The notes under the pieces: generated by a model
Told to the model about the DNA's origin: nothing
The model's database searches: none
The model's input: the letters and a program-made list of their open reading frames with translations, nothing else
NCBI GenBank assembly: GCA_903926205.1
Contig: CAIYID010000020.1
Coordinates: 1-63,226 of the forward strand
DNA: 63,226 nucleotides
Origin: an uncultured Bdellovibrionales bacterium
GTDB taxonomy: Bacteria > Bdellovibrionota > Bdellovibrionia > Bdellovibrionales > Bdellovibrionaceae
Direction of reading: 5' to 3'
Program-made: the position numbers and the translations under genes
Shown here: one piece after another, positions 20,019 to 37,051 of the stretch
How positions within the stretch are numbered: position 1 is the stretch's first letter
How the letters are laid out: every line of letters begins with the position of its first letter

Positions 20019-21008
20019 ATGAATAACAATCAAAGAAATTCTCTCGAATTAGCTCGTAAGGTTTTTGAAGTGGAAGCACAAGCGATTTTGGCCTTGAAAG
20101 ATCGTTTGGGGGAACCCTTTCAAAAAGCTGTTCAATTAGTGAGCGAGTGCCAAGGAAAAGTGGTTTTAACTGGAATTGGTAAATCAGGAATTATCGCTCG
20201 TAAAATCGCAGCGACTTTGTCCTCGACAGGAACAGCTTCAATTTTTTTACATCCCGCTGAAGGTTCTCATGGTGATATGGGAATGGTGGGCACTTCTGAT
20301 TTAGTGATTGCTATCAGTTATGGTGGAGAGACTCCGGAGCTGGCTCCCGTGCTGACTTATGTGACTCGTAAAGGAATTCCTTTGATCGCCATTACAGGCA
20401 ATACCAATAGTGAACTGGCACAAAAATCGGCAGCGGCCCTGGATGTGAAAGTGAGTCGTGAGGCTTGCCCTTTGGGTTTAGCGCCGACGGCTTCTAGCAC
20501 CGCAACGTTAGCCATGGGTGATGCTTTGGCCATGGCAGTTTTGGAGCAAAAAGGTTTCAACGCCGAAGATTTTGCGCAAAATCATCCTGGCGGAGGTTTG
20601 GGTTTCAAACTTTCGAGAATCAAAGATCTGATGCATTCTGGAAATGCAATGCCGATTTTGAAAACTTCGACTCCCATGAAGCAAGTGTTAACTGTGATGT
20701 CTCAAGGAGAAGTTCGTGGTGCGGCCGGCGTGACGGATGATGCGGGAGATTTGATTGGTATTATCACCGATGGAGATATTCGTCGTAAATTAGAAAACTC
20801 TCAAGATCCATTGAATGGCGTGGCAGGTGATCTCATGATGAAAAATCCTCGCATCATTGATGCCAATGAGATTGCAGAAAAAGCCCTGTTTATGATGGAG
20901 CAATTTCGAATCAATTTACTCTTTGTCGTGGATAAGAGCCTGGGTTTTGCTAAAAAACCGGTCGGAATTATTCATATTCAAGATTTAATCAGAGCTAAAG
21001 TTAGATAA
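20019..21008 (+). CDS. kdsD: Arabinose-5-phosphate isomerase (KdsD/KpsF)
   Basis: Converts ribulose-5-phosphate to arabinose-5-phosphate, the first step to Kdo. 329 residues: a SIS sugar-isomerase domain (TGIGKSGIIARKIAATLSS; HPAEGSHGD; SYGGETPEL) followed by two CBS domains (~205-325). ATG start 7 bases after pyrG. Fits the family length (~328 residues). Confidence 0.96.
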   Translation: MNNNQRNSLELARKVFEVEAQAILALKDRLGEPFQKAVQLVSECQGKVVLTGIGKSGIIARKIAATLSSTGTASIFLHPAEGSHGDMGMVGTSDLVIAISYGGETPELAPVLTYVTRKGIPLIAITGNTNSELAQKSAAALDVKVSREACPLGLAPTASSTATLAMGDALAMAVLEQKGFNAEDFAQNHPGGGLGFKLSRIKDLMHSGNAMPILKTSTPMKQVLTVMSQGEVRGAAGVTDDAGDLIGIITDGDIRRKLENSQDPLNGVAGDLMMKNPRIIDANEIAEKALFMMEQFRINLLFVVDKSLGFAKKPVGIIHIQDLIRAKVR

Positions 21009-21068
21009 AGGTCTGGTTTTAGTTGAATCAAGTTGGCGTCGGGCGGAATCCTCTCAACAATAGAGAGC

Positions 21069-21575
21069 ATGAACGGTGCGATCTCTCGTTTGAAAAAAAT
21101 AAAAATGCTGGCGTTGGACGTTGATGGAGTTCTTACGGACTGTCGTGTATTTTTGGATGAGTCCCGGGAGTGGCGCCGAATGTTTTCCATTCGGGATGGT
21201 TATGGGCTCGTACGACTACGAGAGCAGGGCTACAAGCTGGCGATCATCACGGCCTCTAAAGCAAAAGATATTAGAGAACGCGCTCAAGTATTAAAAATTG
21301 ACTATTTTCACGATGGAAACTTGGACAAACTCACCGAATTTAATTTGCTTTTAAAAAATAGTGGATTGAAAGCAGAAGAAGTGGCCTACATGGGCGATGA
21401 TCTTTTTGATATTCCAGTTTTAAAAGAAGTGGGTTTTGCGGCGACAGTGCCTGAGGCGATGGAGGAAGTTTTTCCGGTGGTTCAATACATCACCAAACGT
21501 CCAGGTGGTAATGGTGCGGTTCGAGAGGTTTGCGAATTAATAATTAAATATGGAACATTGGGGACACAGCTATGA
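21069..21575 (+). CDS. kdsC: 3-deoxy-manno-octulosonate-8-phosphatase
   Basis: HAD-family phosphatase that releases Kdo from Kdo-8-phosphate. 168 residues from the chosen ATG, with the nucleophile motif LDVDGVLTD, then ITASKAKD and YMGDDLFDIPVL. An upstream in-frame TTG at 21033 would add 12 residues; neither has a strong ribosome site. Its stop overlaps the next ATG (ATGA), so the Kdo genes read directly into the envelope-machine cluster. Confidence 0.93.
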   Translation: MNGAISRLKKIKMLALDVDGVLTDCRVFLDESREWRRMFSIRDGYGLVRLREQGYKLAIITASKAKDIRERAQVLKIDYFHDGNLDKLTEFNLLLKNSGLKAEEVAYMGDDLFDIPVLKEVGFAATVPEAMEEVFPVVQYITKRPGGNGAVREVCELIIKYGTLGTQL

Positions 21576-22300
21576 AATTTCAAAATGGTTTTATTTCGAT
21601 TTTGTCTTGTTTTCTTTTAGTGACTCACGTCACGAAGGCTCACGCACAGGTCGAGCTGCCTCAGGAAGAGTTAGCCAAAGAAACAGTGGTTCCAAGATTT
21701 GATAATCCCACCACCGTGAAGGCACGAAATATTATTCTTAATGGCAAGTTTGAAACAGGAGTTTATTACGGTTGGAATTTTGCTGAGGCCATTGAAAATC
21801 AAAGTAAAATGGGACTGAATTTAGGTTATCACTGGAATGAGATCAGTTCCGTTTTTATAAACTATGCAGCCTGGCAAGCGGGCCTAAATGGTCAATACAC
21901 CTCAGCTTTATCCGCACAGCCATACAATTTAGATTTCACTCGTGCTCCGCAATTACAGTCTTCACTTTGGGTGAATTATGAGTGGAATGTATACTATGGA
22001 AAAATCAGTATCACCAAAAAAGGAATCTCAAATTTAACGGTGTATCCTATCGCCGGCGGAGGGATGACAACTTACTCCAACAAATCTTATTACGGAATCA
22101 ATGCGGGCCTCGGCGCCAAATTTTATTTTTCACCTCGTTGGGCTTTGCGCACAGATTTCAAACTCCAATACTCAGGACAACCCTCTCCTTTTTTGCAAGG
22201 CGCGATGAAGACGTCGCAAGCCGCGCCGACTCCTGATCGGTTCCAAGATACTTCGGCTCTCGGAACAATTCTTGATGTCGGTCTTGTTGCTTTGTTTTAG
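21572..22300 (+). CDS. Outer-membrane beta-barrel protein (OMP_myx_plus-like)
   Basis: 242 residues: signal peptide ending at KAHA, then alternating aromatic strands (GKFETGVYYGWNFAEAI; NLGYHWNEISSVFINYAAW; GLGAKFYFSPRWALRTDFKL) typical of a small outer-membrane barrel. The pattern matches the OMP_myx_plus family seen near gliding-machine genes of myxobacteria and Bdellovibrio. The start overlaps the kdsC stop by 4 bases. Probable outer-membrane part of the Agl-Glt-like machine. Confidence 0.78.
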   Translation: MKFQNGFISILSCFLLVTHVTKAHAQVELPQEELAKETVVPRFDNPTTVKARNIILNGKFETGVYYGWNFAEAIENQSKMGLNLGYHWNEISSVFINYAAWQAGLNGQYTSALSAQPYNLDFTRAPQLQSSLWVNYEWNVYYGKISITKKGISNLTVYPIAGGGMTTYSNKSYYGINAGLGAKFYFSPRWALRTDFKLQYSGQPSPFLQGAMKTSQAAPTPDRFQDTSALGTILDVGLVALF

Positions 22301-22407
22301 AACATAATTTATTTTTTTGGTTTTTTTTAGAATCAAAGGTCTAGTTTGTTTTGCATTGCTACAACTCTGACCCGACGTTGGATAGTCTATAGCTTGCGAG
22401 GAAAATC

Positions 22408-23235
22408 ATGTTTCGAAAAACACTTACCGGATTTCTTGTTTTTGGACTTTTTCTAAATGCAAAGATGGCGTTAGCGCAATCCAGTGATTCCGGCGACGAC
22501 CGCGATTTAGATCAAATCGAAGCGGAGATCAAAAAGAATGAAGTGATTCCGCCGCCGGCGTCTGCATTGCCGGTCGCACCAGCGAAAGAATCAAGCGCGA
22601 CAGTCACAAAAGAAACGTCACCACCTGAAATAAAAGTGGAAACCTTGTCTGATTTATCGAAGCTCCAGCCCTTCAGCGAGATTTCAGTTTTGCAAAGAAG
22701 GTACATGCCGAAATCTGGTCGAGTGCAGTTTTTCGGAGGTCTTTCAGATATTGTGAATGATCCGTGGAACAGCAATAGTGGGTTTAATTTACGGGCGGCG
22801 TACGGCCTTACGGAAGCTTGGGGAATTGAAGTCGTTGATTACTTTATGAGTTCTACTCCTAGCCAGGCAGCGACCAATTTATTGGCTCAGCACAATGTGA
22901 ATGCACAAAGTTTTGGAGTTACTTCCGGATTTGTCGGAGGCTATGTGATGTGGACTCCCATTTACGGAAAAATGAGTTTTAGTACTGAAAAAATCGTCCC
23001 TTTTGATATGTATTTCAATTTTGGCAGTGGCAATACCAGTCTGAGTGGTGTTGGAGTACCATCGTCAGTGAGTGGACCTTCAGTTGGTACTGGTCAAGTG
23101 TTCGCAATCACGCGTTCTGTTGGCTTTCGCTGGGATTTAACTTGGAACATGTACACACTTCCAAGCGGTTCAACGAACAATTTGTTGCTCACGTTTGGTG
23201 CTAATTGGTACTTTCCGGAGGCTTCATACCGATGA
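22408..23235 (+). CDS. Second outer-membrane beta-barrel protein
   Basis: 275 residues: a signal peptide (GLFLNAKMALAQ), a proline/lysine-rich linker (~25-85) and a beta barrel of the same general type as the preceding gene (GFNLRAAYGLTEAWGIEVVDYFM; VGGYVMWTPIYGKMSF; SVGFRWDLTWNMY). A 107-base gap before it, and GAGGAAAATC before its ATG, suggest it can have its own promoter. Its end overlaps the TPR gene by 4 bases. Confidence 0.76.
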   Translation: MFRKTLTGFLVFGLFLNAKMALAQSSDSGDDRDLDQIEAEIKKNEVIPPPASALPVAPAKESSATVTKETSPPEIKVETLSDLSKLQPFSEISVLQRRYMPKSGRVQFFGGLSDIVNDPWNSNSGFNLRAAYGLTEAWGIEVVDYFMSSTPSQAATNLLAQHNVNAQSFGVTSGFVGGYVMWTPIYGKMSFSTEKIVPFDMYFNFGSGNTSLSGVGVPSSVSGPSVGTGQVFAITRSVGFRWDLTWNMYTLPSGSTNNLLLTFGANWYFPEASYR

Positions 23236-24845
23236 GGAAATCACTACAATCATCTTTAAGTATTTTGGTTCTGCTGACTCTCGTCGCCCCCTTTTCTTCG
23301 AAGGTTTTTGCGGAAAATCGTTCGAAAACAAAAACAACGGGCAAAGCCAAAGCTGTTTCCAAGGCTCCGGTGGTTACAAAATCTGAATCAAATCTGTCCG
23401 CCGTCTCCTCCGCGCAACTATCGCAAGCATTAAAATTAGTGCAATCGGGGCAATATCAGACAGCGGTTCCATTGTTGTATTCTCTTTCTCGTCGAGCCGA
23501 ATTTGAGAAAGAACGGATGCAAATCAAATATATATTGGGCTCGTCCTTGATGGATTTGGGTCTGAATCAGATTGCGGCCTTTCAATTTGTCGAAGTGATT
23601 AAAAATGGCAATAGCCATTACGTAAAAAATGCCATCGAAAAGTTGTCTCTTGCTGCGGACGTATTAGGTGATGATACTCTTTTAAATTACGCCGTTTCGC
23701 GAATCAAAGTTGAAGAGATCCCGAATGCCAGCAAGGATTTAATCTACTTCCGCATGGGTGAATTCAAATTAAAAAGTGGTCAATTGAGTCAGGCGATCGA
23801 TCTGTTTTCTCGGGTTCCTGAGACCAGTCGTTACTTCTTTTTATCTCGCATCGATAAAGGTTTAGCTTTTTTAGAGGCTGGAAAACCCCAGGAAGCAATC
23901 ACACTATATAAAAGCCTCGTCAATTATCGTACAAATGCATCGGTGACTGACACCAATCGAGTTGTAGCAACTTTAGGTTTAGCGCGCGCTTATTATCAAG
24001 CGACAGATTGGGAAAATGCAGTGGCTACTTATCGCGAAATTCCTCGCGATCATCCTTTGTGGCACGAGACTCTCTTTGAATCTTCCTGGGCGATGGTGCG
24101 CGCGGCCCGTTTCCGTAGTGCTCTTAGTAACTTTCAGTCTTTGCATTCAGCTTATTATGAGGATTTTTTCATTCCAGAATCTTTGTTATTAAGATCGATT
24201 GTCTATTTATATGTCTGCAAATACGACGAAATGGCGAAAGTGCTGGATCTTTTTGAAAAAACCTACGGCCCAATTCGAAGAGATATGGGAAATTTTGTCG
24301 CGAACAACACCGAGCCACTGGCTTATTTTGCAGAAATTGAAGCTGCTAATAACAACCGTGCTGGCCGTTACACTCGGACAAGACTTCCATTGAAAGTTGA
24401 TTATCAGATTTTGCATGAAGGGGACGTTAAGCGGGCTTTTGGATATTTAAAGGCGTTGAATGAGGAAAAAAATAAATTAGATTTGATGCCAAATATTTCA
24501 AAATCCTCCGTTGGCACCATCGGTCGTAAGATTCTTGCAAATCGATATAAAAACGCGAAGATTTTCATTGGCGAAATGGTCAAGTCTCATTTGATTGAAA
24601 TGAGCGCTCAGCTTAAAGATCAGTATGAACAAGCCAGCTTTATTCGCTATGAAATGATCAATGGCGAGAAAGAACTGCTCAAGAAACGAATTGCAGGAAA
24701 AGATGCTCCAAAGGTGATGTTGAATGAAAATGTTGATCGTAGCGTTTATGCTCAAAATGGTTATGAATATTGGCCTTTTGAGGGTGAATTTTGGCTAGAT
24801 GAAATTGGAAATTATCATTATTTGGGTAACCAAAGTTGCGAGTGA
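23232..24845 (+). CDS. Periplasmic TPR protein of the gliding-type cluster
   Basis: 537 residues from the ATG overlapping the preceding stop (GGAGG ten bases upstream). A signal peptide (ILVLLTLVAPFSSKVFA) is followed by helical TPR-like repeats over ~50-320 (YQTAVPLLYSLSRRAEF; LSQAIDLFSRVPE; WENAVATYREIPR) and a helical C-terminal third. Similar proteins accompany Glt motility genes. Specific role unknown; likely a periplasmic scaffold. Confidence 0.72.
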   Translation: MRKSLQSSLSILVLLTLVAPFSSKVFAENRSKTKTTGKAKAVSKAPVVTKSESNLSAVSSAQLSQALKLVQSGQYQTAVPLLYSLSRRAEFEKERMQIKYILGSSLMDLGLNQIAAFQFVEVIKNGNSHYVKNAIEKLSLAADVLGDDTLLNYAVSRIKVEEIPNASKDLIYFRMGEFKLKSGQLSQAIDLFSRVPETSRYFFLSRIDKGLAFLEAGKPQEAITLYKSLVNYRTNASVTDTNRVVATLGLARAYYQATDWENAVATYREIPRDHPLWHETLFESSWAMVRAARFRSALSNFQSLHSAYYEDFFIPESLLLRSIVYLYVCKYDEMAKVLDLFEKTYGPIRRDMGNFVANNTEPLAYFAEIEAANNNRAGRYTRTRLPLKVDYQILHEGDVKRAFGYLKALNEEKNKLDLMPNISKSSVGTIGRKILANRYKNAKIFIGEMVKSHLIEMSAQLKDQYEQASFIRYEMINGEKELLKKRIAGKDAPKVMLNENVDRSVYAQNGYEYWPFEGEFWLDEIGNYHYLGNQSCE

Positions 24846-24853
24846 GATCAGTT

Positions 24854-27800
24854 ATGAAATGGACACTGGTATTATTAACTTTAATGATTGCGATGTCTTC
24901 AGCGAATTCTTTTGCAAAGAATTCGTCGACTGAGGCAGAAGACTCAACCGCGAGTTCAAAACAGAGTCTTAGCAAAAAGAAAACGACTAAAAAGGGATCT
25001 CTAAAAAATAAAGCCTCGAATGCAGTATCCACTCAAGGAATTCACTCTAAGGCTAAGATAGCTAAATCATCTGGTAAAAAAGCAGTTGCCGATATGCTGA
25101 AGAAACCGGATCGTGCATCAACGGTGCAAGTTGACCAAAAAAAGCAAACGTCTTTACCGTCATTCAATGATAAAATTATTCAAGCAGGAAATCATACTCC
25201 CGTAAATCTTTCGGAAGTAAAGCCTCCTCGAACTTCAAGTTTTATGGAGGAGGCGGGCAGTGATGATAAGGCCAAGTTAGAAAAAATCACTGATCAGCAG
25301 ATTCAAGAGCTCTACAAAATGATTGAAAAATTTAAGGGATCTCCACGTCGAGGGGAACTCTGGTTGCGGCTGGCAGAACTTTATGTCGAGAAGGCTGGAA
25401 TCATCGATTTTCGAAGACAAACTGACTTTGATCTTAAAATGCGAGATTTCCATGATGGGAAAATCAAAGTTAAACCACGTTTAGATCTCGCGGACGCTAG
25501 AGACTATAATAAAAAAGCCGTTCAACTTTATGAATGGTTTATTCGGGACTTTCCTAAAGATGAAAAAATGGATCAAGCCTTGTTTTTCTTGGGCTACAAT
25601 TACTTCGAACTCAACGAATCGAAGCGAGGACTGGTTTATTACACTCGTTTGACTCATGAATATCCAAGCAGTCCATTTATCACCGAATCTCATTTTGCTT
25701 TGGCCGAATTCTATTTCGAGGCTGAAAAATGGAAGTTGGCTGGTGAACACTATCATGAAATAACAAAACATAAACATCATCGTTTGTATGGATTTTCGAC
25801 TTATAAAGAAGCTTGGTGTTTTTTTCGCTCCGGCCGTACCAACGAAGCCTTGCGAACCATGGAGCTCTTGATTCGAGAAAATCGTGAATTAGCTCAACAG
25901 GCCGCCGAAGGAAAAAAAGTATCGAAAGCGCGTCTTGAAAAAGAAGCCCTGCGAGACATTGTTCTTTTTTATGCAAATGAAGGAAGCCCTCAGAAAGCGA
26001 CAGAATATTTTACGAATATTGCAGGAAGTGATGCTTCCAGTTACATCGAAAAATTAGCTTATCTCTATACTGATAAAGGTAATCGAGATGGGGCCCGAGT
26101 ACTTTTTAATTATTTAATTATTAAAAATCCCACCACACCGAAGGCTTTTGATTATAAATATCAAGTCATTCAAGCCTATGCGAATGCGACAAAAACACGT
26201 GAGTTTCGCGAAGAATTGTATTCCTGGGTGAAAGATTTTGGTCCTTCAGGTCATTGGTATCAGACGAACAAGAGCAATGTCGAACTGATGGATAGCTCCT
26301 CTAAGTTACGAGAAACAACTTTAAAGAACTGGGTTTTGACTCAACATCAAACGGCTCAAAATTCTCATGCGAAATTTAGTCAGGGTTTAGCTTACGAAGG
26401 CTATAAAGTTTTTTTACAGGAATTTCCGAGTGGCCCCGCGACTGCAGATATGCACTTTTTCTTCGCTGAGCTTTTGTATGATATGGAAAGATATGAGGAG
26501 GCGGGTGTACAGTATCGATGGGTTGTCGACAATGCGCCAACATCGAAATATGGCAGCAAAGCCGCAGAAAATATCGTGCTCGCGCTAGAAAAAAATATTC
26601 CAAAAGATGAGGAGATTTCTGCTACCGTAGGAAAATCTTTGGATCCTGTCGAATTCAATTCAAAAGTTGAAAAATTTGTGCAAGTAGCTCAGTGGTATTT
26701 AACAAAATTTCCTAAAACTGATAAAACTGCTGAAATCAAATTTCGTGTTGGACGCTTGTACTATCAACACAATCAATTTGATCGAGCAATTCCTTATTTT
26801 AAAGAAATTGTTCAGAATTATCCAAAAACTAAATACTCTGAATATTCTGCCAACTTACTATTGGATATCTTCAATTTGAAAAAAGACTATGCAGGCTTAG
26901 AAAAAACTGGCCAAGAACTTTTAGCCGTACCAACGATTGCGAATTCAACTGCCGGCGCAGACATTCGAGGCGTTTTAGAAAAAGCACAGTTTAAAAAAGC
27001 ACAGGATTTAGAGATTAATAAGGATTATGGAGCATCCGCAGAGCAGTTTGAATCCTTTGCAAAGCAAAATGCAGGTTCGGCTTTAGTTTCGGCAGCACAT
27101 TTTAATGCTGGAATTAATTACGAGCGTGCAGGAAGCAATGGTAAGGCCATCAGTAATCATGCCTTGGTTTTGGCTTCGAAAAATAAAGAGGCAGAGCCTC
27201 TGAAACAAAAATCCAGAAGAATTTTAGCGAAGCTTTATCAAGATGCGGGAATGATTGAAGAGGCGGCGAAGGCCTATAGAAATTCGGCAATTGAAGCGGG
27301 AGCTGACCCCGCAGCAATGAACCTCTATTTCAACGCGGCCATTTTGGATGAGGCACTTGGGCGTAACCACGAAGCCGTTCAAAATTTTCAGACTTATTTT
27401 GATAAAAGCAAAAAAGCGGATCGAGTTGAAGCAGTATTTATGATCGCGGAGATAAACCGTCGAGCGGGTCATCAGAAGGATTCAGCCGAACGCTACAAAG
27501 AATATTTCAATTTTGGATTGAATAACGAAAAATCTGTGGAAGCGTCCTATCGTATGTATGATTTCTACAAAGCTCAGCAAAAAACCAGTGAAGCCGAAGT
27601 TTGGAAACGAAGAACTTTGACGACGCAAAAGAAACTCAATCCCAACAAGAAAGGGGCCGGTGCCTCTTGGGCTGCAAAAGTTTTGCTGGATGAGTCCACC
27701 CTCGCATTCCATGAACTTAAAAATATAAAAATTCCAGAAAATCCTGCCAAACAAAAGAAAGCGGTTCAGCAAAAAATTGATCGTTTGAATGATTTAAATC

Positions 27801-28159
27801 AAAAATTAGCGGAGATTATAAAATACGATTCACCAGAAGAAATTGTGGGAGCTCTTAATCTTGGTGGGCGCGCCAATCAGCAGATCGGGGAAGCTTTCAT
27901 AACAGCTCCTGTGCCAAAGGGCTTGAAACCCGACGAATTGAAACAGTATAAGGATGGAATTCAAAAAGTAGCGGATCCTTTCTTCGCAAAAGCAAAAGAA
28001 AGTTTTAAAACGGCTCTGGAGAGAAGCTCGCAGTTAGAAGTTTATGGAAAAGAGTCTGAGTATGCCCGCGAAAACTTGAAGAAAATTGATTCCAGTGCCG
28101 TCGTTGATCATGGCGAAGTCCCTATGGAAATTCGATCGAGCTCGTGGATGGTGGATTAA
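24854..28159 (+). CDS. Giant periplasmic TPR protein (gliding-motility type)
   Basis: About 1101 residues with signal peptide (TLVLLTLMIAMSSANSFA), a Ser/Lys-rich linker (~25-110), then many TPR units through ~900 (LFFLGYNYFELNESKRGLVYY; FDRAIPYFKEIVQNYPKTKYS) and a charged C terminus. Large TPR proteins of this kind (AgmK/GltI- or AglT-like) are scaffold parts of the Myxococcus Glt complex. I start at the ATG at 24854; a TTG six codons earlier is the alternative. The next gene's ATG overlaps its stop. Confidence 0.72.
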   Translation: MKWTLVLLTLMIAMSSANSFAKNSSTEAEDSTASSKQSLSKKKTTKKGSLKNKASNAVSTQGIHSKAKIAKSSGKKAVADMLKKPDRASTVQVDQKKQTSLPSFNDKIIQAGNHTPVNLSEVKPPRTSSFMEEAGSDDKAKLEKITDQQIQELYKMIEKFKGSPRRGELWLRLAELYVEKAGIIDFRRQTDFDLKMRDFHDGKIKVKPRLDLADARDYNKKAVQLYEWFIRDFPKDEKMDQALFFLGYNYFELNESKRGLVYYTRLTHEYPSSPFITESHFALAEFYFEAEKWKLAGEHYHEITKHKHHRLYGFSTYKEAWCFFRSGRTNEALRTMELLIRENRELAQQAAEGKKVSKARLEKEALRDIVLFYANEGSPQKATEYFTNIAGSDASSYIEKLAYLYTDKGNRDGARVLFNYLIIKNPTTPKAFDYKYQVIQAYANATKTREFREELYSWVKDFGPSGHWYQTNKSNVELMDSSSKLRETTLKNWVLTQHQTAQNSHAKFSQGLAYEGYKVFLQEFPSGPATADMHFFFAELLYDMERYEEAGVQYRWVVDNAPTSKYGSKAAENIVLALEKNIPKDEEISATVGKSLDPVEFNSKVEKFVQVAQWYLTKFPKTDKTAEIKFRVGRLYYQHNQFDRAIPYFKEIVQNYPKTKYSEYSANLLLDIFNLKKDYAGLEKTGQELLAVPTIANSTAGADIRGVLEKAQFKKAQDLEINKDYGASAEQFESFAKQNAGSALVSAAHFNAGINYERAGSNGKAISNHALVLASKNKEAEPLKQKSRRILAKLYQDAGMIEEAAKAYRNSAIEAGADPAAMNLYFNAAILDEALGRNHEAVQNFQTYFDKSKKADRVEAVFMIAEINRRAGHQKDSAERYKEYFNFGLNNEKSVEASYRMYDFYKAQQKTSEAEVWKRRTLTTQKKLNPNKKGAGASWAAKVLLDESTLAFHELKNIKIPENPAKQKKAVQQKIDRLNDLNQKLAEIIKYDSPEEIVGALNLGGRANQQIGEAFITAPVPKGLKPDELKQYKDGIQKVADPFFAKAKESFKTALERSSQLEVYGKESEYARENLKKIDSSAVVDHGEVPMEIRSSSWMVD

Positions 28160-29013
28160 TGAAAACTTTAATTAAATTCTCCCAATTTTCATTGTTGGTA
28201 CTTTTGGTGGCTGGATGTTCGAGTGCTCCCAAAAAGACGGCTCCAGTCGAAGATGATCATGCCGGAAAAGTTGAATTGGAAACAATGCCTCCTGTCCCGA
28301 GTAAGACCTCTAATGCAGACGCCGTCGCAACTCCAGTGAATAGTAAGTCAGCAAACTCTTCCGCATTAAGTGAGGCCATCAGGTCTGGTAGTGACGAGTC
28401 CATTTATCGAGTGGCTTCCTCAATGCTTATGCAGAACGCGAATGATGTAAAAGCATTAAATGCAATGGGATTGTTTCATAATCGAAAGGGACGTCCGTTG
28501 GCCGCGCGATTATTTTTTAGTAAAGCTTTATCGATTCAGCCTGACAATTCAGAATTGCACTCGAATATGGGACTGACTTATTTGGCAAATCAAGAGCAGA
28601 CAGCGGCGATCCGCGCCTTTCGAAAAGCGATTGAACTTAATCCCGCGGATATCAGCGCAACAACAAATTTAGGCTCGATTTACATGGAAAACAGAGATTT
28701 TAGCAAAGCCTTCAGTGTGCTAAGCCTCAACACTGGACGCAGTAAGGACATCAAGTTCTTGAATAACTTTGCCATCGCCTGCGCCTGGAAGGGGAAAGTT
28801 GAACAAGCCGAAAGTTTATATCAGGAAGCTTTGAAATTGTCACCGAACAATCGAGAAATATTATTTAACTATGCTGTTTTTCAAATCGATTATCAGGCAA
28901 AATTTAAAGAAGGTCTCGAGACTTTGGACCATTTAAAGTTAATTGGTCTAGTGGAAAGTATGAAGAATACCACGAAGGATTTGGAAATTAGAGCAAAAGC
29001 TGGTTTAAAATAG
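28159..29013 (+). CDS. TPR lipoprotein (GltE/AglT-like)
   Basis: 284 residues. A lipoprotein signal ends in VAGC (Cys20); a Pro/Ser linker and three or more TPRs follow (KALNAMGLFHNRKGRPLAARLFF; SNMGLTYLANQEQTAAIRAF; TTNLGSIYMENRDFSKAF). Resembles the TPR lipoprotein GltE (AglT) of the gliding complex in layout. The start ATG overlaps the preceding stop (TTAATGA), so the TPR genes are translationally coupled. Confidence 0.72.
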   Translation: MKTLIKFSQFSLLVLLVAGCSSAPKKTAPVEDDHAGKVELETMPPVPSKTSNADAVATPVNSKSANSSALSEAIRSGSDESIYRVASSMLMQNANDVKALNAMGLFHNRKGRPLAARLFFSKALSIQPDNSELHSNMGLTYLANQEQTAAIRAFRKAIELNPADISATTNLGSIYMENRDFSKAFSVLSLNTGRSKDIKFLNNFAIACAWKGKVEQAESLYQEALKLSPNNREILFNYAVFQIDYQAKFKEGLETLDHLKLIGLVESMKNTTKDLEIRAKAGLK

Positions 29014-29029
29014 GAGTAGGATTTACAAC

Positions 29030-29305
29030 ATGATGTTGCTTCAACAGTTTTTTATTACAATTATTATCCTCACTTTTGCAAATTTTTGCTTCGCTGCAGA
29101 TTCGTCAGCAAAAAAGGAGCCTCGCAAACAGAGCATCACGTTTGAAGATGAATTGGTTGAAGGTTCAACTCAAAAGCCAGATTTGTTTTATTTGTTTCAA
29201 AAAAAGAATTACAATTTTTCACGAATGATGAAATTGCGAAAAGACTTTATTCCAGAGATGAAACGATCAACTGAAGATGTTCAACGTGGACGAGGCAGCA
29301 ATTGA
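29030..29305 (+). CDS. Small secreted protein, CglF-like
   Basis: 91 residues: signal peptide ending at CFAA, then a conserved-looking short body (ITFEDELVEGSTQKPDLF ... RKDFIPEMKRSTEDV). The 'FEDE-x-VEG ... F-x-PEM-x-x-S' pattern and its position beside AgmX-type and Tol-type motor genes recall CglF, a small outer-membrane contact-gliding protein of myxobacteria. Named from pattern memory, so moderate confidence. Its stop overlaps the next TTG start. Confidence 0.6.
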   Translation: MMLLQQFFITIIILTFANFCFAADSSAKKEPRKQSITFEDELVEGSTQKPDLFYLFQKKNYNFSRMMKLRKDFIPEMKRSTEDVQRGRGSN

Positions 29306-31332
29306 GATCACCAGTTATTCTAAGAATATTTAAAAACAGCCAACTTGTTGAAGTAAAACAATTCGACAAGGATCAAATTATTTTCGGGCATGGCGGCGAC
29401 GTTGACGTCGAGCTAGCGGACTCGGCGGTTTCACCGATCCACTGTTTGATTGAGCTTCGCGATTCAGGGTACTACCTAGCAGATCTTGGCTCGTCGACAG
29501 GCACTTCGAAAAAAAATGTGCAAGTTTTAGATGAGGCATTGTCCTCTGGTGATCAGATCAATGTTGGACCTTTTGTTATTCACTTTTTTGTGGGAGTACC
29601 AAAGCCTAAAGCTCCTCCTGAAGTTGCTGTAAAACCGATAAATGTTTCTATTGCGCCACAAAAACCAATAGTAGTGACAGCGGTGGCTCCTGTTGTATCG
29701 CCATCCGTAGCAGTAGACACGACGGCAAAAGAATTAGAAAAATTAAGACCCCATTTGCCAGAAGCAGAAAAATTACCCAAAAAAAGTTCTACTGGAAAAA
29801 CTGGAAAATCTTCAAGGAAAACGCGTACGACATTTGCTCCTCCGAGCCAAATCACTGATTTAAAAACTTATTTGCGTCCGACCAAGGGGCCGGTCCTTGA
29901 AGTGCTGGTGGCTTGGAAAGAAAGAATTATTTCAAGTCATCACTTTTCGACTAAAAAACAAATCACGATGGGCCCTGAAGCATCTTGTGATATAAATATT
30001 CCATCGACTTTCCTCGCGCAAAAAATTCTGTTTGCCAATTTGGCTCAAGGTACAAAAATCTTTCTAGCCAATGGCATGACTCCTGAGATTTATCAGACAG
30101 AAAAAAAATATGATGCAGAGTTAATGCATTCTTTAGGAAAATCCACTCGCGAAAAAAATGGCGTTGCTGTTCGTTTGGATCAAGGTGAGCTTTTGTCCAT
30201 TACGGTGGGAGACGGAACCTTACAGATTTTTGTTCGTCATGTTCCTGGCACTATGGTGCCATCGCTTTCCGGTCTGGATCTGACAGCAGGAGAGTTAACA
30301 GGCTTGATCGTTTCATTTGTGGTCGTCGCTTTGTTGGCGTTATATGTTTCTGTGTATAATCCTGGGGATCAAGGACAAGATAAACAAGAAGATCAGCTAA
30401 AGCTTGCGAAGTTTGTGTATACGGCGAAAGAAATACCAACGCCGAAGCCGCCCGAGCCTCCGCCAAAACCGGTGGAGCAACCACCACCAAAACTTCCACT
30501 ACAAAAAGTTGAAGTGGTGAAGAATTCGAAAGACACGAGCGGAGATCCGAAGAAAAAATCAGCAGCAATGCGAGATAAGCCAGCGCGTGCTGAAGAAGTT
30601 CGAACTAACAATAGCAAATCGACAAGGAAAACATTTACCTCCGCTATCAAACAAGGTGGCGCAGTGAAAACAACCGACAAAGCCGCGGCGAATGCGGCTT
30701 CCAAAAAAGATGTCAATGATATGGGATTGCTAAGCGCTTTTAGTGGCGGTGGGACGAGAAAATCTCTTGATAAAGCCTACAGCGGTTCTGGAGAGTTGAT
30801 TGGAACTGGAAGTCAGGCGACGGGCTCTTCAGGAATGAATGAAAATAGACCCGGGGATGATTTGGGTGGAAAATTCAAAGACACTGGCGCTGGTGGTAAA
30901 GGCACCGCGACTCAAGGTATTGCGGGAATAAAAACACTCGGTCGAAGTTCTGGGCAGGATAAGTATGGTAACGTCGGAGTGGGTGGCAAAGGTTCTGTTG
31001 CTATCGAAGCTGGTGGAACTGGCGCGGAGTTTGTTGGCACCGTAGATCGGGAGCAGGTTCGCCGTGTGGTTCGAAGTATTTTGGCGCAAATTAAGAGCTG
31101 TTTCGACCGAGGTCTTGTAACTAATTCCAATCTTGAAGGAAAAATTGTCATTCACTGGGAAGTGGTTGAACAAGGTCACGTGAAATTGTCCAACGTAAAG
31201 GACTCTCCAAAAGAATTAAAAGAGGTAGCAACGTGTGTGGCGGCGAAAATTCGCGAACAGAGATTTCCTGAGCCACCGGGCGGAAGTTACTACGAAGTCG
31301 ACTATCCGTTCATGATGAGTAAACAAAATTAA
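29302..31332 (+). CDS. FHA and AgmX/PglI-domain trans-envelope protein (GltG/GltJ-like)
   Basis: 676 residues. An N-terminal cytoplasmic FHA domain (~1-95; SPIHCLIE, GSSTGT) leads to a linker and a second FHA-like region (~185-310), one membrane helix (~333-352, GLIVSFVVVALLALYVSVY), a proline-rich TonB-like spacer (TPKPPEPPPKPVEQPPPK), a Gly/Lys-rich stretch and a C-terminal AgmX/PglI-type TonB-like domain (VRSILAQIKSCFDRG...GKIVIHWEV). It can span from cytoplasm to outer membrane, like GltG and GltJ, and would carry force from the adjacent TolQR motor. TTG start with GAGG upstream. Confidence 0.85.
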   Translation: MRSPVILRIFKNSQLVEVKQFDKDQIIFGHGGDVDVELADSAVSPIHCLIELRDSGYYLADLGSSTGTSKKNVQVLDEALSSGDQINVGPFVIHFFVGVPKPKAPPEVAVKPINVSIAPQKPIVVTAVAPVVSPSVAVDTTAKELEKLRPHLPEAEKLPKKSSTGKTGKSSRKTRTTFAPPSQITDLKTYLRPTKGPVLEVLVAWKERIISSHHFSTKKQITMGPEASCDINIPSTFLAQKILFANLAQGTKIFLANGMTPEIYQTEKKYDAELMHSLGKSTREKNGVAVRLDQGELLSITVGDGTLQIFVRHVPGTMVPSLSGLDLTAGELTGLIVSFVVVALLALYVSVYNPGDQGQDKQEDQLKLAKFVYTAKEIPTPKPPEPPPKPVEQPPPKLPLQKVEVVKNSKDTSGDPKKKSAAMRDKPARAEEVRTNNSKSTRKTFTSAIKQGGAVKTTDKAAANAASKKDVNDMGLLSAFSGGGTRKSLDKAYSGSGELIGTGSQATGSSGMNENRPGDDLGGKFKDTGAGGKGTATQGIAGIKTLGRSSGQDKYGNVGVGGKGSVAIEAGGTGAEFVGTVDREQVRRVVRSILAQIKSCFDRGLVTNSNLEGKIVIHWEVVEQGHVKLSNVKDSPKELKEVATCVAAKIREQRFPEPPGGSYYEVDYPFMMSKQN

Positions 31333-31373
31333 GAAGGTTTTTAAACAGATTTGGATTTCAACAGGAGGAGACA

Positions 31374-32027
31374 GTGAACAATCAAGACATGCCATTTTTA
31401 GTGAGGGCTTTTTCAGAAGGTGGCCCGGTCATGTATATCATCGCAGTTATTTTTATCATCACGTTGTTGTTGGTGGCAGAGCGCTTTATGGCTCTCAAAA
31501 ACCTAACAATTGATCGAAAGGAATTTGCGGACAGCCTTTTTGGCATGGTGATGAGAGGTGATCTACGTCAGGCAATTGCTTATTGTGATTCGCGACCAGT
31601 GCCGCTGACAAACACGGTGAAAGCGGGCTTGGTGCATGCAATGAATAAGCGGCCCGACGAAGAAATTCAGGTGGCGATGGATGCTGCAGTTTTGCGAGAG
31701 ACTCCTCGCTTAGAGGGTTGGACCTCTTTCTTGGCGGTGACGGGTAACGTATCCGTGTTGTCGGGATTGCTTGGTACAATTATTGGTATGATCACATCAT
31801 TCCGTGCGGTGTCTGCGGCGGATCCTGCTGAAAAAGCTCAAAGACTTTCAGAGGGGATTTCGCATGCCTTGAATTGTACGGCTTTTGGTTTGTTGGTCGC
31901 GATTATTTCAATTGTTTTCTATGGATATTTTCAATTGCGAATTCAAAGAGCTGAAAATGAAGTGATGGAAGCCAGCATGAGTGTATTAAACTTAGTGGCG
32001 TCCAATCGAGAAAAAATTAGAGAGTGA
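31374..32027 (+). CDS. TolQ/ExbB/MotA-family proton channel (AglR-like)
   Basis: 217 residues with three membrane helices: MYIIAVIFIITLLLVAE at ~17-34, and two more around 118-140 and 160-185 (TGNVSVLSGLLGTIIGMITSF; GISHALNCTAFGLLVAIISIVFYGYF). This is the TolQ/ExbB fold that conducts protons with TolR partners. GGAGGAGACA precedes the GTG start. Followed by two ExbD/TolR genes, as AglR is partnered by AglQ and AglS in Myxococcus gliding. Confidence 0.93.
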   Translation: MNNQDMPFLVRAFSEGGPVMYIIAVIFIITLLLVAERFMALKNLTIDRKEFADSLFGMVMRGDLRQAIAYCDSRPVPLTNTVKAGLVHAMNKRPDEEIQVAMDAAVLRETPRLEGWTSFLAVTGNVSVLSGLLGTIIGMITSFRAVSAADPAEKAQRLSEGISHALNCTAFGLLVAIISIVFYGYFQLRIQRAENEVMEASMSVLNLVASNREKIRE

Positions 32028-32082
32028 TGACGTGAGGAATTGAGCGGAGCGAGATTCCCAATTTATAACAGAGGAATGAATC

Positions 32083-32556
32083 ATGTCTGAAATACAAACC
32101 GGCAGCGGTGGAGGACGAAGAACAAGTCTGGAACTAAATCTGGTTCCTTTCATCGACTTGATGAGCGTGCTCATCACCTTTCTTTTGATCACAGCGGTTT
32201 GGAGTCAGGTTTCCATGATTCAAATCGGTAGTTCGATTTACGGGAAAAAAACTGATTCCGCGCCGATTCAGCCTCCTCCAGAGTCTGATGTGGTATTAAA
32301 AGTCGAAGTGCGTGCAAATGGTTACACCTTGACCGTCGCAAAACAGAACACGAACATACCAAATAAAAATGGTGAGTTTGACGATGAAACCTTAGCGAGT
32401 CTGATCCAAAAAGTGAAAGCACAGCATCCGAATAAAGTGGATGCTGCGATAGCAATGGCTGACGAACTGCCTTATGAACGTTTGATTCGCGTGATGGATG
32501 CTTTTTTGAAAAATGGATTTGGTAGTTTGAGTGTGCTCACAGGAGGGCCTTACTAA
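32083..32556 (+). CDS. ExbD/TolR-family motor subunit (first)
   Basis: 157 residues: a single N-terminal membrane helix with the proton-carrying Asp (NLVPFIDLMSVLITFLL) and a periplasmic domain. Works with the TolQ-like subunit. A ribosome site (AGAGGAATGAATC) precedes the ATG. The 55-base gap before it contains an imperfect hairpin (GGAAT ... ATTCC). The stop overlaps the next ATG (TAATG). Confidence 0.92.
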   Translation: MSEIQTGSGGGRRTSLELNLVPFIDLMSVLITFLLITAVWSQVSMIQIGSSIYGKKTDSAPIQPPPESDVVLKVEVRANGYTLTVAKQNTNIPNKNGEFDDETLASLIQKVKAQHPNKVDAAIAMADELPYERLIRVMDAFLKNGFGSLSVLTGGPY

Positions 32557-33137
32557 TGCCAATACACTCTCCAGGAGTAAAATTTCGAAATCACCGCTTG
32601 CTCAGTCGCAAAGGTGGGAAGCGTGAAGTTGTTGCTGTTTTGAGCTTAACAGCAATGGTGGATATGTTTACGGTTCTCGTGATTTTTCTTTTGCAAAATT
32701 ATAATTCCACAGGCGAAGTACTTTATATTCCCAAAGAAGTGACCTTGCCAAAGGCAGCGAAAATTAAAGAATTAAAGCCAGCTGTTGTTGTCACTATTTC
32801 TTCGAAAGAAATTTTGGTCGATAAGACGACCGTGATTTCTTATGATGCTCTCAAAGCTCAACAGGATTGGATGGTCGAGCCGCTAAGGGCTAAGTTGCAG
32901 GAAGCGATTGCGCAGGCTCGGCAAAATTTTGAGAAAAAATTGCAGAATCAATTGAAAGCCGTGGTTGAGCCTCCCAAAGATGGTTTGACTCCTGACTTGA
33001 ATCCTTGGAACAAGGTGACAATTCAAGCCGACAAAGGAATTGATTTTTTAACAGTTAAAAAGATCATGTACACGGTGACCGAAGCTGGCGCCGGAGAGAT
33101 TAACTTTGCTGTAAATAAAGAAAAAATCCAACAATAA
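32556..33137 (+). CDS. ExbD/TolR-family motor subunit (second)
   Basis: 193 residues with the membrane helix SLTAMVDMFTVLVIFLL, whose Asp is the expected proton-binding residue, and a longer periplasmic domain with a Gln/Lys-rich helix (~115-145). Two different TolR proteins beside one TolQ is the AglRQS arrangement. It is the last gene of the envelope-machine block before lptC. Confidence 0.92.
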   Translation: MPIHSPGVKFRNHRLLSRKGGKREVVAVLSLTAMVDMFTVLVIFLLQNYNSTGEVLYIPKEVTLPKAAKIKELKPAVVVTISSKEILVDKTTVISYDALKAQQDWMVEPLRAKLQEAIAQARQNFEKKLQNQLKAVVEPPKDGLTPDLNPWNKVTIQADKGIDFLTVKKIMYTVTEAGAGEINFAVNKEKIQQ

Positions 33138-34956: not shown

Positions 34957-36390
34957 ATGGCAAAGCTTAGTCAATCGATGAACTTAAGTCAGCAGCTGCG
35001 GATGACTCCGCAATTGCAACAGGCGATTAAGTTACTTCAGCTTTCCCGTATGGAACTCGAAACGGCCGTGCGGAATGAAATCGAAGAGAATCCTATTCTT
35101 GAAGAAACCACGGATTTGAAAGAAGAAGATTTTCAGCGCACGAAAGAGGCCGAGCGCGAAGTTGAAGCTAGTACTGAGCCACAGGCCGACACGCAAGATC
35201 CGCAAAAACAAGATGAGTTTGAGTGGGAAAATTATTTAGAGACTCAATACAAGCCACCTTCTCAAGGGCAAAGCGGCAATGAAGAAATTATGAACTATGA
35301 AAACGTGATGACGACACAACAGTCGCTTCACGAATATCTTGAGTGGCAAGCTCGGATGTATGGTTTTAACGATGAAGAATTAAAGATCGCAGAAGTTTTG
35401 ATCGATTATGTTGATGACGATGGTTATGTTTTGACTCCGCTGGAAGAGATTGCTGCTAGCGAAAAAATGGAACTCGGTGATGTTCAAGATGTGTTGGGTT
35501 TTATTCAAGAGTTTGATCCTCCTGGAGTCGGGGCTCGAAATTTAAAAGAGTGTTTGCTCATTCAGGCCAAAGCCATCGAAGAAGACACGAATGACTTGGT
35601 TTTTTTGATTAATAATCATTTGAAAGATTTGGAAAAGAAAAATTATGAGGCCATTGCGCGGGCAATGACTCGTGACGTGCGTGAAGTGGCAGAACTTTGT
35701 CAGATCATTTACACCATGGATCCTAAGCCAGGGCGAGCCTATGCACCTCAGGATACTCAATATGTGATGCCTGATGTTTATGTGTACAAAGTGGGTGATG
35801 ATTTCATGGTGTCCCTGAATGAAGATGGACTGCCACGTTTAAAAATTTCTAATTTTTATAAAAATGTTTTGAAGTCTTCTGGTGGTGGCGGAGCCAAAAC
35901 TCAAGAGTATATTCAGGATAAATTACGTTCTGCTGTTTGGTTGATCAAGTCAATCCATCAGCGCCAGCGAACAATTTATAAAGTGGCTGAGTCAATTGTG
36001 AAACAGCAAAAAGAATTTCTCGAAAAAGGAAACAGTTTTTTACGTCCCATGGTTTTGCGTGATGTGGCCAACGACATTGGCATGCATGAGTCCACTGTTT
36101 CACGGGTGACGACCGCTAAGTACATGCACACACCACAGGGCATTTTTGAGCTGAAATATTTTTTCAACTCTGGCATTAACACGGCTGACGGTGAATCTTT
36201 GGCGAGTGAGTCCGTCAAACAAAAAATCAAAGATTTAGTCTCGAAAGAAAGTCCCAAGGATCCATTGTCCGATCAAAAAATTGTAGAATTGCTGGATAAA
36301 GAGGGAATTAAAATCGCTCGTCGAACAGTGGCGAAATATCGCGACCTTTTAAGGATTTTGCCAAGTTCTCGTCGTAAAAAAATGTACTAA
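34957..36390 (+). CDS. rpoN: RNA polymerase sigma-54 factor
   Basis: 477 residues. N-terminal Gln/Leu-rich activator region (NLSQQLRMTPQLQQAIKLLQ), acidic linker, core-binding region, helix-turn-helix and the C-terminal RpoN box ARRTVAKYRDLL (DNA -24 recognition). Ribosome site AGCGGGGAAT. Would work with the FHA-domain activator encoded at 15434. Gene order lptB-rpoN-hpf is conserved widely. Confidence 0.97.
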   Translation: MAKLSQSMNLSQQLRMTPQLQQAIKLLQLSRMELETAVRNEIEENPILEETTDLKEEDFQRTKEAEREVEASTEPQADTQDPQKQDEFEWENYLETQYKPPSQGQSGNEEIMNYENVMTTQQSLHEYLEWQARMYGFNDEELKIAEVLIDYVDDDGYVLTPLEEIAASEKMELGDVQDVLGFIQEFDPPGVGARNLKECLLIQAKAIEEDTNDLVFLINNHLKDLEKKNYEAIARAMTRDVREVAELCQIIYTMDPKPGRAYAPQDTQYVMPDVYVYKVGDDFMVSLNEDGLPRLKISNFYKNVLKSSGGGGAKTQEYIQDKLRSAVWLIKSIHQRQRTIYKVAESIVKQQKEFLEKGNSFLRPMVLRDVANDIGMHESTVSRVTTAKYMHTPQGIFELKYFFNSGINTADGESLASESVKQKIKDLVSKESPKDPLSDQKIVELLDKEGIKIARRTVAKYRDLLRILPSSRRKKMY

Positions 36391-36670: not shown

Positions 36671-37051
36671 ATGAAATTTAAGTTCAACTTTCACCAAGTC
36701 GACTCGTCACAGGCTTTAACTCTCTACACTCAAGAAGAGATTGAAAAAGTTGGTCGTTTTCTTTTGACGGAGAGCACTTGCCAAGTGTTTTACCGGATGG
36801 AACGTCATGATTGTCATATTAAGGTTGATGTCAACTCTCCTTGGGGGCACTTTAAAGCAACCAGTAAGGCTGAAAATTTTTATTTAGCCATGGACGACGC
36901 TGCTCAAAAATTAGGCAAGCAATTTAAAAAATTCAAAGAAAAACATCAAAATCACCACAAAACAGAACGATCAAAACAGGGTCGTTTAAAACGTGTGAAT
37001 ACACAGTTGGAATTTGATGACTCTCCTTACCCGAGCAAGAAGGTCAGCTGA
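36671..37051 (+). CDS. hpf: Ribosome hibernation promoting factor
   Basis: 126 residues. The HPF/RaiA fold (~1-100) binds the ribosome at tRNA/mRNA sites in stationary cells. Motifs HCHIKVDVNSPWGHFKATSKAENFYLAMDDAAQKLGKQFKKFKEKH fit the family. A ~30-residue basic tail follows, shorter than the dimerisation domain of long HPF. AGAGGAG precedes the ATG. Located after rpoN as in many bacteria. Confidence 0.88.
   Translation: MKFKFNFHQVDSSQALTLYTQEEIEKVGRFLLTESTCQVFYRMERHDCHIKVDVNSPWGHFKATSKAENFYLAMDDAAQKLGKQFKKFKEKHQNHHKTERSKQGRLKRVNTQLEFDDSPYPSKKVS

Follow-up and report, generated by a model that had tools for sequence, protein, structure and literature searches.

The ten plus-strand genes at positions 21572-33137 of the window (the whole 63,226-nt stretch of DNA that was analysed, contig CAIYID010000020.1 of assembly GCA_903926205.1, to which all coordinates below refer) lie between kdsD-kdsC and an lptC-lptA fusion followed by lptB, rpoN and hpf. 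They probably represent the Bdellovibrionales orthologue of the Agl-Glt system of Myxococcus, at the same locus as Bd0828-Bd0838 of Bdellovibrio bacteriovorus, and would thus encode a proton-driven surface machine for adhesion, gliding or prey attachment that was assembled between kdsC and lptC in the ancestor of the order. The evidence from the present analysis concerns gene content, orthology, order-wide conservation, the insertion site and the close or overlapping gene junctions; the requirement of Bd0838 for prey attachment is taken from published work.

Gene content of the block

The ten genes named in the original prediction, which had been made from the sequence alone, are all present on the same strand at the positions listed here, and family searches agree with their assignments. 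The flanks, described as kdsD-kdsC on one side and lptC-lptB-rpoN-hpf on the other, needed a single correction, in that what was taken for lptC encodes an LptC-LptA fusion; a separate lptA is missing because the two form one fused ORF.

20019..21008, plus strand: kdsD (SIS and CBS domains, Pfam SIS/CBS), conserved upstream gene and flank
21033..21575, plus strand: kdsC-type HAD phosphatase (HAD hydrolase families), start TTG 21033 or ATG 21081
21572..22300, plus strand: OM1, outer-membrane barrel (GltA/B-like), TIGR04565 OMP_myx_plus 83.6 bits, cut-off 60
22408..23235, plus strand: OM2, outer-membrane barrel (GltA/B-like), TIGR04565 OMP_myx_plus 90.1 bits, cut-off 60
23232..24845, plus strand: GltC-like TPR protein, NF033756 E 1.8e-52, under curated cut-off
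24854..28159, plus strand: GltD-like TPR protein, TPRs, best match of Myxococcus GltD in the window genome
28159..29013, plus strand: GltE-like TPR protein, NF033758 E 8.3e-15; block profile against Myxococcus GltE 116 bits
29030..29305, plus strand: GltF/CglF-like secreted peptide, NF033764 E 5.7e-10, under curated cut-off
29302..31332, plus strand: GltG-like protein with FHA domain, transmembrane (TM) segment, Pro-rich stretch and TonB-like (AgmX/PglI) tail; NF033760, NF033768, FHA
31374..32027, plus strand: AglR-like motor subunit (TolQ/MotA family), PF01618 MotA_ExbB 97 bits, AglR by tree
32083..32556, plus strand: AglQ-like motor subunit (TolR/ExbD family), TM Asp25, PF02472
32556..33137, plus strand: AglS-like motor subunit (TolR/ExbD family), TM Asp36, PF02472
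33189..34151, plus strand: LptC-LptA fusion, downstream flank, PF06835 and PF03968
34166..34888, plus strand: lptB, ABC_tran
34957..36390, plus strand: rpoN (sigma-54), Sigma54 domains
36671..37051, plus strand: hpf, PF02482

Beyond hpf, the downstream flank also includes metK. The overlap reported between the kdsC stop and the start of the first barrel is real, and consists of the four bases ATGA at 21572-21575.

Profile searches bear out the proposed Agl-Glt-like identity. Both barrels exceed the OMP_myx_plus cut-off, the tail of the GltG-like protein exceeds that of the AgmX/PglI-type myxo_SS_tail domain (NF033768), and the four Myxococcus equivalog models (GltC, GltE, CglF and GltG) are matched significantly, the GltG model NF033760 over its whole length (222 bits, E 1.1e-65). 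All four equivalog matches fall under the curated, Myxococcus-tuned cut-offs, which counts against our reading, and membership in the system therefore rests on the cross-genome comparisons, the gene set and the gene order. A PDB search with the AglR-like subunit matched TolQ/ExbB only, and an AlphaFold2 model of OM2, built on a two-row alignment, reached a pLDDT of 32.

Comparison with the Agl-Glt system of Myxococcus

With the Agl-Glt system of Myxococcus xanthus the block has in common the core proteins GltC, GltD, GltE and GltG, a GltF/CglF, two OMP_myx_plus barrels of the GltA/GltB type, and an AglRQS-type motor with TM aspartates. These aspartates, Asp25 of the AglQ-type subunit and Asp36 of the AglS-type subunit, are each present in 97% or more of 49 rows and align with those of Myxococcus, Asp25 with its counterpart in Myxococcus AglQ. 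Of the several Agl-like systems encoded in the window genome, the block is the best match of Anaeromyxobacter GltC and of most Myxococcus queries: GltD scores 271 bits with it and 108 with the next system, the values for AglQ being 72 and 59 and those for AglS 86 and 67. The exception is AglR, with 150 bits to the block and 167 to locus C52, so that on this one subunit C52 is slightly closer to Myxococcus, a point against the orthology. In the reverse direction, profiles built from the block score 425-508 bits with Myxococcota GltD and 35-252 bits with other Bdellovibrionaceae systems, and the GltG model, at 222 bits in the block, gives 73-127 bits with three other GltG-like proteins of the window genome. 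The same genome encodes an MglA that is 62% identical to that of M. xanthus.

The block shares the MotA/TolQ/ExbB and ExbD/TolR folds with the Tol-Pal and Ton energizers, as well as the TonB-like tail on its GltG, but it differs from them in its FHA-containing GltG, its TPR and barrel partners and the placement of its AglR. In the tree, the AglR family is split from TolQ-like rows with support 100/98, and a Tol-Pal identity was rejected because AglR does not fall in the TolQ clade. The AglR proteins of the block form a clade of their own (100/100), within a family whose deep branching lacks resolution.

By the Myxococcus standard, calling the machine complete, as the original prediction did, was too strong. 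A Hyalangium GltH query found no match in the window genome or in that of B. bacteriovorus HD100 at E 0.01, searches for a full-length GltJ in the window genome returned only matches to the shared C-terminal tail, and no gene for GltI, GltK or CglB lies within the block. GltH and GltJ are essential in Myxococcus, and their absence, for GltJ as a full-length protein, counts against the reading proposed here. The arrangement differs as well: the gliding parts of Myxococcus lie in three separate clusters (G1, G2 and M1), whereas the window has one block.

Conservation and insertion site

A comparison of gene order across relatives, which had been proposed as a check on the block, found it conserved. 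Its GltD was matched in 50 of 50 good-quality relatives (60 were searched), and of the 53 loci read, which come from ten families of the order, 52 share the arrangement of its core genes, among them the one in the genome taken to be that of B. bacteriovorus HD100; the sole exception is a swap of the gltF and gltG profile hits. Such recurrence excludes chance; the 53 loci are, however, not independent events, and single inheritance accounts for all of them. The presence of the same block in ten families also rules out an insertion private to the window genome, and a recent mobile-element insertion was rejected since both site and gene order are shared across these families. At one locus (L089, genome G004) kdsC and OM1 together seem to have been flipped within the stretch from kdsD to OM2, and some 7 kb separates gltE from gltF-gltG; both are possibly assembly effects.

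The two junctions of the block behave differently. In the 50 loci with OM1 on the block strand, the gene directly 5' of it is kdsC in 36, kdsD in nine and pyrG in one, with none seen in four; barrel homology begins 15-68 bases past the kdsC stop in 35 of the 36 kdsC cases, and families f1, f2 and f6 show repeated instances of a four-base kdsC/OM1 overlap (ATGA or GTGA). On the other side, the next recognised gene 3' of the block is lptC in 43 of 48 loci, at a distance from aglS2 of 9-139 bases in 24 of 24 measured Bdellovibrionaceae loci and of 730-3617 bases in most others. From these measured gaps, the kds-side link is order-wide and close spacing on the lpt side is largely confined to Bdellovibrionaceae. 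The suggestion that the block is co-expressed with the LPS genes thus stands for the kds side, where the tight same-strand packing suggests co-expression, and only partly for the lptC side, where the distance is 0.7-3.6 kb in most families other than Bdellovibrionaceae. Scans for sigma-70 promoters and terminators gave site numbers similar to those in shuffled sequence, and no plus-strand terminator-like site was found in the scan at the block junctions. Outside Bdellovibrionaceae, the space between aglS2 and lptC often holds a convergent gene whose product has GYF_2 and PilZ (c-di-GMP receptor type) domains (L097, L307, L308 and others); its homologues in Bdellovibrionaceae sit elsewhere in the genome (G000:C33:42389-43054 in the window genome).

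That the block was inserted between kdsC and lptC, as first proposed, receives direct backing from genomes of the same phylum outside the order. In families f26 and f27 (one genome each) kdsC and lptC are contiguous and followed by lptB and rpoN; in f26 the earliest possible lptC start comes just three bases after the kdsC stop. The word inserted is well founded because of this contiguity. In a third outgroup genome (f13), kdsD adjoins lptC. Across the phylum, lptB is contiguous with lptC and nearly always with rpoN, and the kds-lpt-rpoN-hpf neighbourhood of sigma-54 is known to be conserved (PMC3162934). In the regions read, neither kdsC nor lptC lies beside the related Glt clusters of families f12, f23 and f24 or of Myxococcota, the latter thus showing no kds-lpt linkage, unlike the window block. 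The simplest history, judged from gene order, would be that the block was assembled once at the kdsC-lptC site, in the ancestor of the order. The machine is already known, but its order-wide linkage to kds and lpt genes seems unreported; the open-licence literature, as far as our search covered it, contained no mention of an Agl-Glt block between kdsC and lptC.

The Bdellovibrio bacteriovorus counterpart

One relative genome, which we take to be that of B. bacteriovorus HD100, has four Agl loci where Bd0412-0420, Bd0828-0838, Bd1473-1483 and Bd2368-2377 are expected. The second of these (L074, Bd0828-Bd0838) contains the same ten genes in the same order and with the same kdsC-lptC-lptB-rpoN flanks as the window, its AglR being 74% and its GltD 53% identical to those of the block. 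HD100 belongs to another genus of the same family, and its kdsC stop and barrel start lie a few bases apart rather than overlapping.

This machine was described in B. bacteriovorus in 2010-2011 (PMC2797640, PMC3169522). Luciano 2011 considered Bd0828-0838 the best candidate for gliding and pointed out that the species lacks GltH, I, J and K (PMC3169522). Duncan 2019 reported that an insertion in Bd0838 (aglS) leads to complete loss of attachment, killing and rounding, and that predation depends on Bd0836 (PMC6561027). The Bd0838 phenotype needs careful reading, since lptC and lptB lie directly downstream in Bdellovibrionaceae: a transposon in the block may have polar effects on lptC-lptB there, which bears on the published attachment mutants, and loss of attachment, which could include such effects on lptC, is in any case not proof of gliding. 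According to a 2026 review, the gliding machinery of Bdellovibrio has yet to be identified (PMC13104615). The block is an Agl-Glt set that keeps its position throughout the order and, for the majority of its parts, is the nearest to Myxococcus Glt, which makes it the natural first target in the search for that machinery.

Proposed mechanism and alternative explanations

In the mechanism that we propose, the parts that are separate in Myxococcus would have been united in the order ancestor as a ten-gene block between kdsC and lptC. Along the force path that we infer, AglR, AglQ and AglS would form a proton channel that works through the two conserved TM aspartates, and this motor would drive GltG, which would span the inner membrane and reach the periplasm with its TonB-like tail. 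GltC, GltD, GltE and GltF would pass the motion on to the two outer-membrane barrels, and these would hold or move surface adhesins, resulting in movement or a firm hold on surfaces and prey. The product would then be adhesion or gliding rather than an LPS task. A transcript shared with the kds operon, if it exists as the packing suggests, probably ties the dose of the machine to envelope growth, and plausibly gives it a growth-phase dosage.

The alternatives weighed here are not mutually exclusive, and the one that survives best concerns only why the block sits where it does, making it compatible with the explanation above. In this reading, a single arrival of the block in an essential operon with strong expression was followed by its retention there for steady expression, without any functional tie to LPS. 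A single insertion event accounts for all cases, the kds-lpt-rpoN order around the block is strongly conserved in its own right (PMC3162934), and the distance to lptC in most other families leaves only the kds side tightly held; the recurrent kdsC-OM1 overlaps, on the other hand, suggest a maintained junction, and we regard the matter as evenly balanced.

It is rather unlikely, although worth serious consideration, that another Agl-like system is the gliding motor and that this block is a fixed prey-adhesion apparatus which does not move the cell. Other B. bacteriovorus Agl clusters have been linked to entry, exit and biofilm predation, which weighs against the gliding reading of the block. 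In a cluster other than this one, bd1480 (aglQ) shows induction on surfaces (PMC9140294), and predation on thick biofilms requires Bd1481 (PMC2277423). The phenotype of the Bd0838 mutant is a loss of attachment (PMC6561027). Against a merely static role, the GltD, GltC, AglQ and AglS of this block are the ones nearest to Myxococcota Glt/Agl, and a relative with a complete genome (G003) has a GltD match at this block only.

We find it improbable that the main task is envelope maintenance or the handling of LPS and the outer membrane, the machine acting as a Tol-Pal- or Lpt-like helper whose linkage to kds and lpt reflects direct function. A position between kdsC and lptC throughout the order and the overlapping kdsC/OM1 frames in several families are what such a role would have in its favour, together with the up-regulation of Bd0828-0838 in prey-independent growth reported by Lambert 2010 (PMC2797640) and the Agl-Nfs spore-coat machine of Myxococcus, by the literature a paralogous, AglRQS-driven Glt-like set, which moves polysaccharide (PMC3858216). 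However, the block is orthologous to the gliding set, the outgroups have a contiguous kdsC-lptC without it, and in the regions read the same machine does not lie beside kds or lpt genes in Myxococcota and related families of the phylum. Moreover, a TolQ candidate is encoded elsewhere in the window genome (C3), and no LPS-binding part was identified in the block. From gene order, a direct LPS role is possible. Less likely again is a functional coupling in which the adhesion and gliding machine would move or insert LPS-associated surface material, or need new LPS at adhesion sites, with Kdo/LPS synthesis, export and traction forming one growth-phase module in all Bdellovibrionales; if such a link were true, surface traction would be tied to the building of the outer membrane.

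Other Agl-Glt-like loci

The window genome (G000) carries further Agl-Glt-like loci on contigs C52, C66, C79, C85 and C87 (L262-L266). The one on C87 closely matches the Bd1473-1483 cluster of B. bacteriovorus, and that on C52 has a motor without recognised Glt genes nearby. In the genome read from family f17 of the phylum (G066), there are separate, more distant Agl-Glt-like clusters at 280 kb and 1340 kb (L275 and L274), and in this family the GltD of the block was either unfound or weakly matched.
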